From positions 80,404-144,403 of the forward strand of contig NZ_KI519518.1 of assembly GCF_000482865.1 (NCBI RefSeq): a stretch of 64,000 bases of DNA. The letters are read 5' to 3'. The notes beneath the pieces are model-generated. The model had not been told where the DNA came from, made no database searches, and saw only the letters and a program-made list of their open reading frames with translations. The position numbers and the translations under genes were made by a program. Positions 1 to 50,630 of the stretch are shown piece after piece; the stretch's first letter is position 1, and the number at the start of each line of letters is the position of its first letter. The DNA is from Actinokineospora inagensis DSM 44258. Lineage in GTDB: Bacteria > Actinomycetota > Actinomycetes > Mycobacteriales > Pseudonocardiaceae.

Positions 1-462
1 GGCTAAAAGGCGGGGCCACTGGAAAGCGTGGCCTTACCCGCCGGCCGGCTTAGGCCACCGCTCCCCCCAAACAAAACAACTTCACCACAACGGGCGGTTG
101 GGATCGGCGGGTTTCGAGGCGCGTGGGGTGGGCTGGCGGCCTTCGTCGATAAGGCGTTGGGTTTGAGGGGTGCGGTGCAGGAGTGGCGCTTCGTCGATGA
201 GGGGTGAGTTCTGTTTTTTTTGGGGGGGCGCTGTGTGAGTTGGTCGTGGTGGGTGTTCTCGTGTGGGTGGGGGTGATGTGAGGGGAGGTGACCCCGGGGT
301 GGAGGAGGTCGTCGCGGGCGAGGGGGCTGACAGGGGTGGCGTTGGGGGTGGGGATCGGGGGAGAAGTCAACCGGGGTCCGGATCTTGCCCTTGCCACGGG
401 GCGGGCGGCGCGCTACGTTGGCGTTACTGCGTAGGGGATAAACAGAGCAGGGGGAGTATCTG
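1..462. other. Non-coding G-rich leader region upstream of the FAD monooxygenase
   Basis: No convincing gene is seen here. Open frames on both strands are low-complexity (Pro/Arg/Thr-rich) and lack a recognisable domain. The plus strand is strongly G-rich, with an unusual T8-G7 run near 216-231. A short inverted repeat, GGCCAC/GTGGCC around an 8-nt loop, lies near 14-35. Two similar short strings beginning CTTCGTCGAT occur near 141 and 188. The last 15 bases hold a purine-rich ribosome-binding site for the gene starting at 463. The stretch could be an intergenic repeat or a decayed gene end. Confidence 0.5.
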
Positions 463-46083: not shown

Positions 46084-47178
46084 TCAGTTGAGGGCGCAGT
46101 TGATCAGGACGGGTTCGGGGTGCAGGTCGACGCCGAAGGAGGCGCGGACGCCGTCGCGGACGGTTTGGGCGAGGGCGAGGATGTCGGCGGTGGTGGCGGT
46201 GCCGCGGTTGGTGAGGGCCAGGGTGTGCTTGCCGGACAATGCGGCTCGACCGTGCTGGTAGCCCTTGCCGAACCCGGCGCGTTCGATGAGCCAGGCGGCG
46301 GAGAGCTTGGCCGTGCCGGGCCCCGCCGGGTAGCTGGGCACGGTGACATCAGCCCCCACCACGGCGGCGATCCGGCCGATCACGTCGTCGAGGGCGGTGA
46401 CCGGGATGATCGGGTTGGTGAAGAACGACCCGGCGCTCCACGTGTCGTGGTCGGCGGGGTCGAGCACCATTCCCTTGCCACGCCGCAGTTCCAGCACCGC
46501 CGCCCGCGCGTCGGCGACCGGCACGCGTTCTTCCTGCCGCACCCCGAGCGCGCGCGCCAGTTCCGTGTACCGGATGGGCGCGGACAGCCCGTCGTCGGTG
46601 AGCGCGAAGCGCGCCCGGAGGACAACGGCCCGATCGGTGCCTTTCAGGACGCTGGTGCGGTAGTCGAGCCCGAGTTCGTCGGCACGCAACGTCCGGATCT
46701 CGCCAGTCCCCCGGTCGAGCAGGTCGACGGAGACGAGCACCTGCGACACCTCGACCCCGTAGGCACCCACGTTCTGCACGGGCGTGGCGCCGACCAGACC
46801 GGGGATGCCGGACAGGCATTCCAGCCCCCCCAACCCGGCTTCGACGGTGCCCGCGACAACGGTGTCCCAGTCCTCGCCCGCCTCGACGGTGAGCTGCACC
46901 CGCCCCGGCTCAGTGCAGTCGATCTTGCTCCCGCGGTTGGCGACGAGGACCACGGTCCCGTCGAACCCGAGGTCGCCGATGACCAGGTTGGACCCGCCGC
47001 CGAGGACCAGCAGCGGCCCCGCGCTCCGGTCGACCGCTTTGACGGCGTCGACGACCTCCCCGGCGGTGGTGGCGGTCACGAATCTGGCCGCGGGCCCACC
47101 CAGCCGCAGGGTGGTGTAGCCGGAGAGCGGTACACCGGAGCGGACGTCGGCACCGAGGGGGAGGCTGGTCACGGGCAC
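46084..47178 (-). CDS. murB: UDP-N-acetylenolpyruvoylglucosamine reductase (MurB)
   Basis: FAD enzyme reducing UDP-GlcNAc-enolpyruvate to UDP-MurNAc. A GTG at 47178 gives 364 residues and has GGGAGG 9 nt upstream; an ATG at 47199 and a GTG at 47172 are alternatives. Motifs: PLSGYTTLRLGGPAARFVTA, LVLGGGSNLVIGD, GIPGLVGATPVQNVGAYGVE, SWSAGSFFTNP-type segment and HTLALTNRGTATTADILAL. Its start overlaps the promoter area of the divergent DUF2505 gene. Confidence 0.95.
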   Translation of the reverse strand: MPVTSLPLGADVRSGVPLSGYTTLRLGGPAARFVTATTAGEVVDAVKAVDRSAGPLLVLGGGSNLVIGDLGFDGTVVLVANRGSKIDCTEPGRVQLTVEAGEDWDTVVAGTVEAGLGGLECLSGIPGLVGATPVQNVGAYGVEVSQVLVSVDLLDRGTGEIRTLRADELGLDYRTSVLKGTDRAVVLRARFALTDDGLSAPIRYTELARALGVRQEERVPVADARAAVLELRRGKGMVLDPADHDTWSAGSFFTNPIIPVTALDDVIGRIAAVVGADVTVPSYPAGPGTAKLSAAWLIERAGFGKGYQHGRAALSGKHTLALTNRGTATTADILALAQTVRDGVRASFGVDLHPEPVLINCALN

Positions 47179-47197
47179 CAACGGTAACCTCCCGCTC

Positions 47198-47692
47198 ATG
47201 ACCAGCCGTATCGAGCACCGCGCGGAGTTCTCCGCCCCCGCCGCGACCGTGCACGCCCGCCTGGTCGACCGCGCCTTCCTCGAGTCCCGCCTGCACGCCG
47301 TCGGCGGCAAGGAGGCGACCCTGGTGGACCACCAGGTCACCCCGGACGGCACCGTGCGCTACCGCCTGCGCCAGACCATCTCCGCCACCGATCTCCCCTC
47401 CGCCGTCCGCAGCCTGATCAAGGGCGACCTGGTCGTCGACCGCACCGAGTCCTGGCAGCCGGACGGCCCGGCTTTCGCAGGCACCACCCGCGCCACCGTC
47501 TCCGGTATCCCCGGCGAGGTCACCGGCCGCTACGCCCTGACCGACAGCCCGTCCGGCAGCCACCTGCGCACGACCGCCGAGGTGAAGGTCCGCATCCCGC
47601 TCATCGGCGGCAAGATCGAGTCCGTGATCGCCGAGCGCGTCCACGCCCTCCTCACCACCGAGGCCACCTTCGCCGAGTCCCAGCCACGGTGA
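47198..47692 (+). CDS. DUF2505 protein
   Basis: 164 residues, soluble, beginning MTSRIEHRAEFSAPAATVHA with VDRAFLESRLHAVGG and VLTTEATFAE-like C-terminus (HALLTTEATFAESQPR). It matches the actinobacterial DUF2505 family next to murB, probably a SRPBCC-like ligand-binding fold. Starts 19 bp from the murB start on the other strand and overlaps the next gene by 1-4 bp. Function unknown. Confidence 0.82.
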   Translation: MTSRIEHRAEFSAPAATVHARLVDRAFLESRLHAVGGKEATLVDHQVTPDGTVRYRLRQTISATDLPSAVRSLIKGDLVVDRTESWQPDGPAFAGTTRATVSGIPGEVTGRYALTDSPSGSHLRTTAEVKVRIPLIGGKIESVIAERVHALLTTEATFAESQPR

Positions 47693-48510
47693 TGGCCAAG
47701 GTCCCGCGACTGGCGGCCGGTCGAGCTCGGGCATTGGGAGTCCCCACGCGGGGAACCACCAACCCGAACCGCCTGCGTCGAGTGGACCGCTGGCTGGTCG
47801 GCACCCCATCTGTTCAGTCTGTTTTGGACAGTCCTACCCCCTTGGTCGTCGATCTCGGTTATGGGGCCACCCCGGTGACGACCGTCGAGTTGGCCGCCAG
47901 ACTGCGCACCGTCCGCCCCGATGTGCACGTCCTCGGTGTGGAGATCGACCCGGAGCGGGTGGCCGCCGCCAAGCCGTTCGAGGACCCGCCGTTGCTGGAG
48001 TTCCGCCGCGGCGGTTTCGAGTTGGCCGGTGCCCGCCCTGTTCTCTTGCGCGCGTTCAACGTGCTCCGCCAGTACACCGAGCCCGAGGCGTGGCAGTCCT
48101 GGTCGACGATGATCTCCCGACTCGCCCCCGGTGGCCTCCTGGTCGAGGGCACCTGCGACGAGATCGGCCGCCGCTGCACCTGGGTATTGCTGGACGCCGA
48201 CGGCCCACGCACCTTCACCCTGGCCAGTCTCCCCGCAACCATCGAACGCCCCTCCGACCTCGCCGAACGCCTGCCGAAGACCCTCATCCACCGGAACATC
48301 CCCGGCGAACCCGTGTACGACCTGCTACGCGCCCTGGACGCCCGCTGGGCGACCGCCGCCCCATTCGTCCCGTTCGGCCCACGCGCCCGCTGGGTCGAGA
48401 CCGTGCGGCTACTGGCCGCCGACGGATGGCCGGTGCTGGACACCCGCCGTCGCTGGCGACTCGGCGAGATCACCCTCCCTTGGTCGTCAGTGGCGCCCGC
48501 AGGCACTTGA
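47689..48510 (+). CDS. SAM-dependent methyltransferase-like protein
   Basis: 273 residues. SAM-binding motif LVVDLGYGATPVTTVELAAR (about 44-63), then VHVLGVEIDPERVAAA (acidic end of beta 2) and a later LAPGGLLVEGTCDEIG. The start is either GTG 47689 or ATG 47692, both overlapping the DUF2505 stop. Small Rossmann methyltransferase; substrate unknown. It ends 53 bp before the 14-bp repeat array. Confidence 0.78.
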   Translation: MMAKVPRLAAGRARALGVPTRGTTNPNRLRRVDRWLVGTPSVQSVLDSPTPLVVDLGYGATPVTTVELAARLRTVRPDVHVLGVEIDPERVAAAKPFEDPPLLEFRRGGFELAGARPVLLRAFNVLRQYTEPEAWQSWSTMISRLAPGGLLVEGTCDEIGRRCTWVLLDADGPRTFTLASLPATIERPSDLAERLPKTLIHRNIPGEPVYDLLRALDARWATAAPFVPFGPRARWVETVRLLAADGWPVLDTRRRWRLGEITLPWSSVAPAGT

Positions 48511-48563
48511 CCTCAAGCCCCCAACCGCCCCCATCCCCGAACCTCCGTCGGACCCCACCCCTG

Positions 48564-49214
48564 GACCGTGCCACCAGACCCGCACCACCTGCCCCCCTGC
48601 CGCCACACCCGCACCGCTGAACCCACACTGCTGAACCCATGCCGCCAGACCCACATCACGGAACCCGTTCCGCCGACCCATGGCGCCAGCCCCGTACCAC
48701 CGGACCCACACCGCAGAACCCGTGCCACCCGACCTATGCCGCCACACCCGCACCACTTGAACCCGCGCCGCCAGACCCACACCGGGGAACCCGCGCCGCC
48801 AGCCCCATGCCACCAGACCCGCACCGCCAGACCCACACCAGGGAACCCGCGCCGCCGACCCGTGCCACCTGCCCCATGCACCTGGCCCATGCCGTCACAC
48901 CCGCACCACTGAACTCGTGCCGCCAGACCCACACTGCGGAGTGCCGCCAGCCTCATGGCGCTAGGCCCACACCGCAGAACCCCTGCCGCTGGACCCACAC
49001 CGCGGAACCCGCGCCGCCGACCCCATGCCGCCAGATCCATGCCGCCGGACCCGCGCCGCAGAACCCGTCCGCCGACCCCGTGCCGCCGGACCTGTGCCGC
49101 CAGACTCATGCCGCCGGACCACATGGCGGAACCCGTCCCGCTGGCCCATGCCGCAGATCCCGCGCCGCCAGCCCCATGCCGCGGGACCCGCGCCTCGGCA
49201 CCCGCACCGCCTAC
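48564..49214. repeat. Degenerate 14-bp tandem repeat array (about 46 copies)
   Basis: Almost continuous copies of a 14-bp unit, plus-strand consensus near CCC-R-Y-R-CCGCCAGA, with occasional 13- or 15-bp units. Because 14 is not a multiple of three, the reading frame shifts at each copy, so the long open frames in the array (minus 48513-49124, plus 48639-49313) are by-products and no gene is called. It separates the methyltransferase gene from purU and contains no CRISPR-like constant spacers. Confidence 0.88.
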
Positions 49215-49288
49215 CCAAGCAGCCGAGCACCGCTGGTCAGGGGGTGTGCGAACGCTGCCAAGTGGACATGGGCTGCGAGGATTGGCCG

Positions 49289-50161
49289 GTGCCGAATGAG
49301 CGTCGTTATGTGATCAGGTTGGGGTGTCCGGACCGCACGGGCATCGTCGCGCGGATCTCCGGGTTCCTGGCGGATGCCGGGGGGTGGATCGTGGAGGCGG
49401 CCTACCACACGGACCCGGAGACGAACTGGTTCTTCACCAGGCAGGTGGTGCGGGCGGACTCGCTGCCGTTCGAGGTGGACGAGCTGCGGGAGCGGTTCGG
49501 CCGGGTGGCGCGGGAGCTGAGCCCGGCGGCGGACTGGAGCGTGACCGACATGGGGGTGCGCCGCCGGGTGGTGATCCTCGTGTCGAAGGAGGGACACTGC
49601 CTGTACGACCTGCTGGGCCGGGTGCACAGCGGCGAGTTGGACGTGGACGTGCGGGCGGTGGTGGGCAACCACGCCGACCTGGCCTCGATCACCCGGGCGC
49701 ACGGCATCCCGTTCCACCACGTGGCGTTCCCGGCCGCCGATCCGGAGGGGAAGGCGGCGGCGTTCGCCCAGTTGCGGCAACTGGTGGACGCGAGCACCCC
49801 GGACGCGATCGTGTTGGCCCGGTTCATGCAGGTGCTGCCCGCCGAGCTCTGCGCGGACTGGACGGGGCGGGCGATCAACATCCACCACAGCTTCCTGCCG
49901 TCGTTCGTGGGGGCTCGCCCGTACCACCAGGCGCACAAGCGCGGGGTGAAGCTGATCGGGGCGACCTCGCACTACGTGACGGCGGAGCTGGACCAGGGTC
50001 CGATCATCGAGCAGGACGTGATCCGGGTCGGGCACGCGGACTCGGTGGCGGACATGGTGCGCAAGGGCCGGGACATCGAGAAGGTGGTGCTGGCGCGGGG
50101 GTTGCGGGCGCACTTGGAGGGCCGGATCTTGGTGCACGGCAACAAGACTGTTGTTCTGTGA
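49289..50161 (+). CDS. purU: Formyltetrahydrofolate deformylase (PurU)
   Basis: Hydrolyses 10-formyl-THF to formate and THF, balancing the one-carbon pool. 290 residues from GTG 49289 (GAGG 8 nt upstream; ATG 49268 possible). N-terminal ACT domain IRLGCPDRTGIVARISGFLA; C-terminal formyl-transferase-like domain with the catalytic region NIHHSFLPSFVGARPYHQAH and GVKLIGATSHYVTAELDQGP, containing the His and Asp. It lies just downstream of the repeat array. Confidence 0.95.
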   Translation: MPNERRYVIRLGCPDRTGIVARISGFLADAGGWIVEAAYHTDPETNWFFTRQVVRADSLPFEVDELRERFGRVARELSPAADWSVTDMGVRRRVVILVSKEGHCLYDLLGRVHSGELDVDVRAVVGNHADLASITRAHGIPFHHVAFPAADPEGKAAAFAQLRQLVDASTPDAIVLARFMQVLPAELCADWTGRAINIHHSFLPSFVGARPYHQAHKRGVKLIGATSHYVTAELDQGPIIEQDVIRVGHADSVADMVRKGRDIEKVVLARGLRAHLEGRILVHGNKTVVL

Positions 50162-50353
50162 GCGGCAAGTGTGTTGGTACACAACGGGTTCCTTCGGGGA
50201 CCGAATTGGCTTGACGACTCCAGATTAGGCCGGGTGGCGGTCGGCGTCATTCACTCGATGGCATGGGGATAGCCGTTTGACGAACATCCGGATCGGCGCT
50301 ATGAGCGACTAATTCGGTTGCCGCACAACGCAAACGCGCGGGACCATCTCCTT

Positions 50354-50630
50354 GTGACAACTGGGGATATTCGCAACCTGACCCTGAGACCGCTGTCCAC
50401 TACCGACCTGTCCGCTTGCCTCACCCTGGCCGCTGATCGCGAGTGGCCGCACGAGGACACCAAGTGGGCGTACCTGCTCGATGTCGAGCAGGTCTGTGGG
50501 ATCGTCAACCTAGCCCGGTAACCCGGTGGCCACCAGCATGGTGCTGGTGGCCACCGGGTACGCGCGGCGCGGGCCGGGTGCCCGCGTCGTGCGGCACGCC
50601 GCGGCCCAGACAGTGTTCGGTGTGGACTGA
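50354..50630 (+). pseudogene. Decayed GNAT acetyltransferase gene
   Basis: Two pieces in different frames. The first (from GTG 50354) encodes NLTLRPLSTTDLSACLTLAA then DREWPHEDTKWAYLLDVEQV and stops at 50521; the second (ATG 50538 to 50630) encodes MVLVATGYARRG and RVVRHAAAQTVFG, the acetyl-CoA-binding core of the same family. About 25 residues between them and the whole C-terminus are missing. A perfect inverted repeat lies across the junction. Confidence 0.72.
50521..50559. repeat. Perfect 18-bp inverted repeat with 3-nt loop
   Basis: Arms ACCCGGTGGCCACCAGCA (50521-50538) and TGCTGGTGGCCACCGGGT (50542-50559), loop TGG. The right arm lies in the remnant GNAT coding sequence; the left arm is its exact reverse complement and follows the premature stop. 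It could act as a terminator after purU, but probably arose by template switching during decay. Confidence 0.85.

Follow-up and report, generated by a model that had tools for sequence, protein, structure and literature searches.

The purU locus

In Actinokineospora inagensis DSM 44258, the gap between two genes of the same direction holds a long and degenerate tandem array. The window, by which we mean the whole 64-kb stretch of DNA that was analysed, carries the following features at this place.

47689..48510, + strand: upstream co-directional gene of 273 aa (ORF), methyltransferase-like by eye, without a match in a Pfam search
48498..49252, no strand: no homology to congeners L059 or L060 detected in local alignments; for L064 there is a gapped alignment from 49182
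48565..49212, + strand: 14-bp tandem array of 47 aligned units with consensus A C C C R Y R C C R C C R G (TRF, self-match, profile alignment, three-unit model)
48761..48871, + strand: clearest local duplication, adjacent four-unit blocks 48761-48816 and 48817-48871 (TRF period 56, 90% matches over 48761-48869)
49000..49216, + strand: weaker 69-bp (five-unit) period, 3.1 copies, 72% matches (TRF)
49268..50161, + strand: purU (ORF, Pfam), with a formyltransferase domain and an N-terminal ACT match just below the cut-off

A DUF2505 gene and then murB, on the opposite strand, lie 5' of the 273-aa gene. The 80 listed relatives of this gene are mostly from Pseudonocardiaceae, the highest identities among them (78-82%) being to Actinokineospora and one Actinosynnema. 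For purU, the query gave some match at E up to 0.001 in 60 of 61 genomes, not all of them purU. Local alignments with three congeners all stop at 48497, in the last codons of the upstream gene, and resume at 49253 or 49254 in two of them (L059 and L060). A regulator gene, MerR-like by eye, lies within the gap in L059 and L064, and two other genera have a different gene there. No promoter-like or intrinsic-terminator-like site was found in 48400-49400.

A degenerate array of 14-bp units

Wrap-around profile alignment places 47 units at 48565..49212, two partial end units being excluded, with a score of 523 compared with a mean of 61 (sd 16, maximum 94) for 20 mononucleotide shuffles. The coordinates, copy count and consensus given by the first-pass annotation of this DNA were therefore right. 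That annotation had also proposed a repeat finder as a check, and TRF does give a 14-bp period (48635-49182, 39.8 copies, 60% matches), with overlapping rows at periods 28, 55, 56, 68 and 69. The self-match is highest at lag 14, 0.547 where base composition predicts 0.348, with lags 28 and 42 next best, and the profile alignment shows 13- and 15-bp units interspersed among those of 14 bp. Tandem units of about 10-100 bp recurring above chance are characteristic of minisatellites, and the array has them. The 661 bases of 48560-49220 comprise 333 C, 155 G, 121 A and 52 T; the C-rich strand of the array is the + strand, which is the coding strand of both neighbour genes. No publication on the 14-bp unit was seen among the literature results listed, which does not by itself prove that it is absent from print.

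A small family of linked unit variants

Unit counts are based on 46 of the 47 units, the unit at 49200 being left out. In the register ACCCGCGCCGCCAG, 255 of the 269 letters at positions 2, 3, 4, 8, 9 and 11 are C (95%). At positions 5, 6, 7 and 10 the commonest letter accounts for 112 of 183, and the departures are 66 transitions and 5 transversions; at positions 1, 12, 13 and 14 it accounts for 114 of 176, with 38 transitions and 24 transversions. Where the unit has a purine, G is at least as frequent as A. The variable positions that had been numbered 4-6 correspond to 5-7 when the A of ACCC is position 1.

At positions 5-7, 41 of the 46 units read R-Y-R (ATG 13, ACA 8, GTG 7, GCG 7, GCA 5, GTA 1), so that ATG, ACA, GTG, GCG and GCA together make up 40 of these 41. 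ACG is absent and TA occurs once, and either value was reached by none of 20,000 position-independent shuffles. The linkage extends to the end of the unit, where a GA tail is found in 7 of 14 units with A at position 7 and in 2 of 28 with G. We read the variable positions as a small family of linked unit variants that were copied and mixed.

Copying is clearest in the two adjacent four-unit blocks listed above, where two compared letters differ across the first three units. Three-unit pairs with at most 4 differences number 3, compared with 0.43 in column-permuted arrays (maximum 4), and those with at most 6 differences number 10, compared with 6.5 (maximum 13); beyond 48761-48871 there is hardly more than a small excess of close blocks. 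The array thus shows both the unit variants and the block duplication expected of a minisatellite, though only one duplication is clear. Among the 10 closest three-unit pairs, differences per site are 0.039 at the C positions and 0.21 at positions 5, 6, 7 and 10. That the six C positions are retained far better than the rest, even in the closest pairs, could reflect constraint.

Age and mutation pattern

The six conserved C positions have diverged from the consensus by 5% (14 of 269), and fourfold sites differ by 36% between this genome and that of the relative G006 (8,789 sites). These figures are consistent with array growth after the split from G006, as fits the absence of the array there.

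Transitions outnumber transversions in the array by 118 to 37, while in aligned DNA outside called genes the two stand at 1673 to 1698. Positions 5, 6, 7 and 10 are GCG-context cytosines on one strand or the other, and the CCG cytosines are kept; outside called genes the C/T differences are 0.101 for GCG and 0.100 for CCG. Since the background ratio is close to one and the two contexts behave alike, background mutation alone does not make the array pattern. The ratio of 118 to 37 calls for another source, either constraint or, as the linkage supports, a small number of founding transitions that were copied many times over.

Deamination of CpG, with GCG as a C-to-T hot spot, was considered as a general rule and rejected on the equality of GCG and CCG outside called genes. 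At fourfold sites, C-to-T differences do favour GCG over CCG (13/63 vs 3/98 in three relatives; 44/685 vs 19/1127 in two). This excess is concentrated in GGCG, with CGCGC at 1/88, and is probably a glycine-codon effect.

Coding potential and RNA structure

Several frames through the array remain open, which might suggest a coding repeat; stops, though, are rare in such DNA. A period of 14 is not a multiple of three, so the reading frame rotates, and it is shifted further by the 13- and 15-bp units. The two open frames through the array that were searched, one per strand, have no Pfam match. The array thus lacks the kept frame of a protein-coding repeat and, for these two open frames, a Pfam homologue, in agreement with the earlier view that translation is unlikely.

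A transcribed structured RNA had been one of four guesses for the array, and the folding results contradict it. The + strand folds less stably than all 20 of its shuffles (z +2.93) and the - strand similarly to its shuffles (z -0.73), so that neither strand folds better than shuffled sequence, and no Rfam family was matched in 47000-50600 at E up to 1. We consider it extremely unlikely that the array is a structured RNA or a coding repeat. Potential G-quadruplexes were counted on the - strand as well: two-tetrad motifs number 24, compared with 15 in shuffles (maximum 18), and three-tetrad motifs 0 compared with 2.65 for loops up to 7, or 8 compared with 4.25 for loops up to 12.

Distribution of the 14-bp unit

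A sequence model of three units gives 14 hits in the window, every one in the array. At E up to 0.1 it matches none of the 109 further orthologous loci (29 + 80, with several species represented twice). In the array's own genome, 13 of 13 hits of the sequence model lie in the array (best 32 of 11,086 candidates scored), a DNA search gives one further weak place (best 40 of 162 candidates scored), and a pattern search gives 141 matches compared with 154 for its backward control.

Comparison of the array with related genomes was another check proposed at the outset. The array as a DNA query has matches in 20 of 61 genomes, its own included, and the reversed array in 16 of 61 (9 candidates scored per genome), so most of the weak DNA matches reflect composition. 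Matches beyond the best of the control (3.3e-7) occur in G036 (1.5e-18 and 7.8e-10), G002 (2.5e-9) and G060 (3.6e-8), that in G002 being a 12-bp repeat that looks coding. Among 200 family genomes, the sequence model matched 49, its own included, and the reversed model 46 (32 candidates scored per genome), the two differing in their top scores only. Nine of the 199 other genomes exceed the best reversed-model score of 22.5 bits, with G168 at 33.2, G068 at 29.9 and G027 at 27.2. By eye, several of these nine have short arrays whose units, of 13-16 bp, contain a similar word, and three represent one coding-looking gene. In a separate observation from another genus, a 16-bp unit is repeated 16 times with 99% matches between two co-directional genes (L003, G036:C1 about 6885398-6885653); its word is close to the present unit, but it is C-rich on the antisense strand.

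These data bear on the proposal, also made at the outset, that the array binds a nucleoid protein. Given the conserved C skeleton (255 of 269 letters at six positions), an array of sites for a DNA-binding protein with a core of CCC-N3-CC-N-C is possible, and the related words in the nine above-control genomes would fit such sites. The conserved C positions are as far as the support for a nucleoid-protein array goes. Against it, no second array of the unit was found in the genome among the best 32 of 11,086 candidates, the orthologous loci searched lack it, and three of the nine above-control genomes share the one apparent coding gene. The variable positions are linked within units rather than free, and the arrays that congeners carry before purU have unrelated units. 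We regard a binding array as very unlikely.

A dispersed hairpin repeat

The window itself begins inside a high-copy palindromic repeat (window positions 1-240, G000:C6:80404-80643; also L290-L319). Its 33-bp core occurs 103 times in the genome with up to 3 mismatches, compared with 0 for a backward control, and adjoins a near-perfect hairpin of about 150 nt; of 8 copies folded, 6 have an MFE of -95 to -113 kcal/mol. Identity among the 13 listed full-length copies is 98-100%. With at most 13 candidates scored per genome, matches were obtained in 6 of 15 congeners, and the longer of these show 68-75% identity, as if each species had homogenised its own version. In the 12 loci read, copies run into degenerate G-rich tails; examples are at about 95-240 of the window and at G000:C1:67737-67940 and 118322-118560, and a 49-bp period is seen in two places. 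A head-plus-tail query has 66 matches in the same genome (best 40 of 180 candidates scored) and none in the 15 congeners. Several copies are close to contig ends. This repeat may deserve more attention than the array.

The array could in principle be the remains or the tandem tail of such a mobile element. The hairpin repeat is found at about 100 places in the genome, some of its degenerate G-rich tails are themselves periodic, and the purU gap is a place of gene turnover. A Blast search of the hairpin against the window, on the other hand, finds only the copy at 1-123 and none near the array, and the unit length and sequence of the two differ. An origin from this element has, in our estimation, only a slim chance of being right.

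The gap before purU in relatives

Most of the purU orthologues examined have no array in the gap, and the arrays that do occur there have other units. In Actinokineospora sp. NBRC 105648 (L065, which agrees in sequence with L111) the gap contains at least 1373 bp of C-rich degenerate repeats with periods of 5, 10 and 15 bp, ending in CCTCG and CCCCG runs. In A. iranica (L066, which agrees in sequence with L102) the gap measures 1184 bp; its sense strand is rich in G over the final 500 bp, where periods of 77, 17 and 18 bp occur. Both arrays are unrelated to the 14-bp unit. In A. pegani (L074, which agrees in sequence with L108) the gap is C-rich and 300 bp long, and a short repeat of 15 bp makes up a weak array. 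Outside the genus, Actinocrispum wychmicini (L113) has an 84-bp repeat of 5.1 copies in this gap. By eye, the gap of A. pegani also contains CTTAACTCTGGGGAGCCGGTGTCAAGGG and its complement as a long inverted repeat.

In the genus, 14 of 16 genomes have a gap of 150 bp or more, and 56 of 67 and 9 of 14 loci of other genera have one of at most 50 bp. As background, gaps of 150-1500 bp were sampled in this genome and three congeners; of these 198, 9 are covered by TRF arrays to 20% or more and 13 have at least 100 covered bases. Without the present genome there are 13 purU gaps, of which 3 reach the 20% coverage (p 0.02) and 2 the 100 covered bases (p 0.21), so that a hot spot is suggested by these counts and not shown. 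One may speculate that Actinokineospora has in its purU gap a hot spot where skewed, degenerate arrays of unrelated units grew independently in several species, the place being inherited and not the sequence. Its members would be the 14-bp array described here, the 5/10/15-bp repeats of sp. NBRC 105648, the 77/17-bp repeats of A. iranica and perhaps the 15-bp repeat of A. pegani, and its cause would be either local, such as replication/transcription conflict, or selection for a long, skewed and unstructured spacer before purU. We find this doubtful. If it is true, arrays that arose independently at one chromosomal place would form a natural series, open to direct tests of what gives birth to arrays in high-GC bacteria.

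The suggestion that the array is a regulatory region of purU has to be seen in the same light. The lack of an array at most purU orthologues examined and of a promoter-like site in 48400-49400 do not bear it out; since two congeners have other arrays in the gap, a role of the place is possible.

A wider class of degenerate noncoding arrays

Similar arrays are found elsewhere. We surveyed them by TRF (arrays of at least 90 bp and at least 2.8 copies) and classed them as noncoding by a simple gene caller. Since this caller overlooks genes, there may be coding sequence in gaps longer than about 1 kb and in some of the 'noncoding' arrays. There are 13 arrays, 8 of them noncoding, in 464 kb of the present genome, and 6, of which 4 noncoding, in 352 kb of three congeners. 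G036 has 22 arrays in 400 kb, 19 of them noncoding, a density that is biased upward because 17 of its 20 stretches were picked around known hits. The noncoding arrays have periods of 14 to 185, and 20 of 31 show a C/G skew of at least 0.2. Among skewed noncoding arrays with flanking genes in the same direction (n=11, the present one included), it is the sense strand that is C-rich in 6 and the antisense strand in 5.

Some of these places merit description. A second degenerate C-skewed array of the same genome, with 30/60-bp units, lies at about 7109-7692 of L196 (G000:C1:327109-327692), between divergent frames that by eye are gatC-like and ACT-domain-like; also by eye, this 30-bp array changes at CCG as well. 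G000:C1 273009-273442 is a low-complexity region of adjacent simple arrays, for example CCCGTCT-, CTTCCT- and CCCCAT-type runs. In G036, two adjacent arrays of 42-bp period with GGTTGAACGGACCGTTCAACC, which is palindromic except for its central base, lie between convergent genes (C1 about 6295381-6295713).

Rho loading as the main rival

The C-rich sense strand raises the possibility that the array acts in transcription termination. On read-through from the upstream gene, a C-rich, G-poor and unstructured RNA of 650 nt might load Rho in the manner of a rut site, stopping transcription before purU, so that the array would serve as a terminator or insulator. In every 78-nt window of the array C outnumbers G, and C/G is above 1.5 in 98% of these windows compared with 8% for the 64-kb window. 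This is the longest such run in the window, with 605 window starts (the next have 165 on the + strand and 282 on the - strand). The mean folding energy is -0.22 kcal/mol per nt, and 2 of 150 random 120-nt stretches are less structured. The array therefore has the excess of C over G for at least 70-80 nt and the lack of structure that characterise a rut site. The absence of an intrinsic-terminator-like site in 48400-49400 also fits, as does the C-rich sense strand in the purU gap of sp. NBRC 105648 and, weakly, of A. pegani.

The finer pattern and the comparison with other arrays do not point the same way. Single cytosines at 11-13-nt steps are present in every 78-nt window, but 98% of windows from the shuffled array pass as well, so this rule says little. 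Chains of YC dinucleotides at 11-13-nt steps reach a length of 5 at most, compared with a mean of 9.7 in shuffles; among five YC step ranges, only 14 is above all 100 shuffles. At the purine positions of the unit G is not rarer than A, and the array in the purU gap of A. iranica is G-rich on the sense strand. If Rho loading were what such arrays have in common, their C-rich strand would be sense across the class, which is the case in just 6 of 11 and not in A. iranica, a comparison that bears on the class and not on the present array. DNA after stop codons is not significantly C-rich in this genome (n=109, p=0.12). In PMC12288462, Rho termination is reported as the dominant mode in mycobacteria, and the Rho of M. 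tuberculosis as recognising purine-rich sequences; the former favours the proposal and the latter does not.

Rho loading on C-rich RNA is the main rival explanation: it fits the composition, but neither the orientation nor the conservation. We consider it unlikely for the present array. As a general function of such arrays it was rejected, given their inconsistent orientation and the DNA downstream of stop codons.

A probable lineage-specific minisatellite

The explanation that we favour, and hold to be reasonably probable, is a lineage-specific noncoding minisatellite with variant repeats, grown in an array-prone gap. Of the four original guesses the variable minisatellite is best supported, to which the linked types, one block duplication, the restriction to a lineage and the similar arrays nearby and in relatives can now be added. 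Observed directly are the array, its linked types and its block duplication, the absence of the unit from the relatives searched, the lack of RNA structure, and the other arrays in the gap of congeners and in the same genomes. Against it, related words form arrays in other genera that score above the reversed-model control.

From these observations we infer a mechanism of duplication, an order of events and an absence of function. According to this scenario, the gap before purU would have acquired noncoding sequence in the present Actinokineospora lineage, and a GC-rich word of about 14 bp would have been multiplied in tandem through replication slippage or unequal exchange. A few transitions early on may then have given rise to about five linked unit types (GCG, GTG, ATG, GCA and ACA at positions 5-7, with linked tails), which later block duplications and exchanges would have mixed, and scattered late mutations would now blur the array. 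Unrelated arrays would have grown in the corresponding gap of two congeners. Such an array would require no dedicated protein and would encode nothing.

The recurrence of arrays in the purU gap could mean that the place matters. The array is real and probably ordinary in kind; what is unusual is variation that preserves purine and pyrimidine, and the recurrence of unrelated arrays at one place. Gaps in this family carry degenerate, skewed minisatellites in which gene finders may call arginine- and proline-rich open frames, and the present locus could be usable for strain typing.

Comparison with known systems

In eukaryotic minisatellites, variant repeats (MVR) consist of a few linked unit types interspersed along one array. 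The present array resembles them in this respect, and differs in lying on a bacterial chromosome, with no meiotic mechanism, and in coming from a single genome. The MIRU elements of mycobacteria are intergenic tandem repeats with longer units, dispersed over many loci. They share with the array its intergenic position, its tandem repetition and an actinobacterial host; here the unit is shorter and there is one locus among the best-scored candidates of the genome.

Compared with rut sites as described in PMC6407284, the array likewise would give a C-rich, G-poor and unstructured sense RNA 3' of a stop codon. It is about 650 nt long rather than about 80, has a 14-nt period, is not conserved, and is known here from sequence alone. 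In PMC2884548, repeats had to have units of 20 bp or more with 90% identity. Compared with the usual VNTR typing loci, the copies of the present array are far more diverged (60% matches by TRF) and strongly strand-skewed, and the array is known here from one genome. It is like the bacterial intergenic minisatellites and VNTRs of that study in having short tandem units in a noncoding gap, restriction to a lineage, variant units and block duplication.
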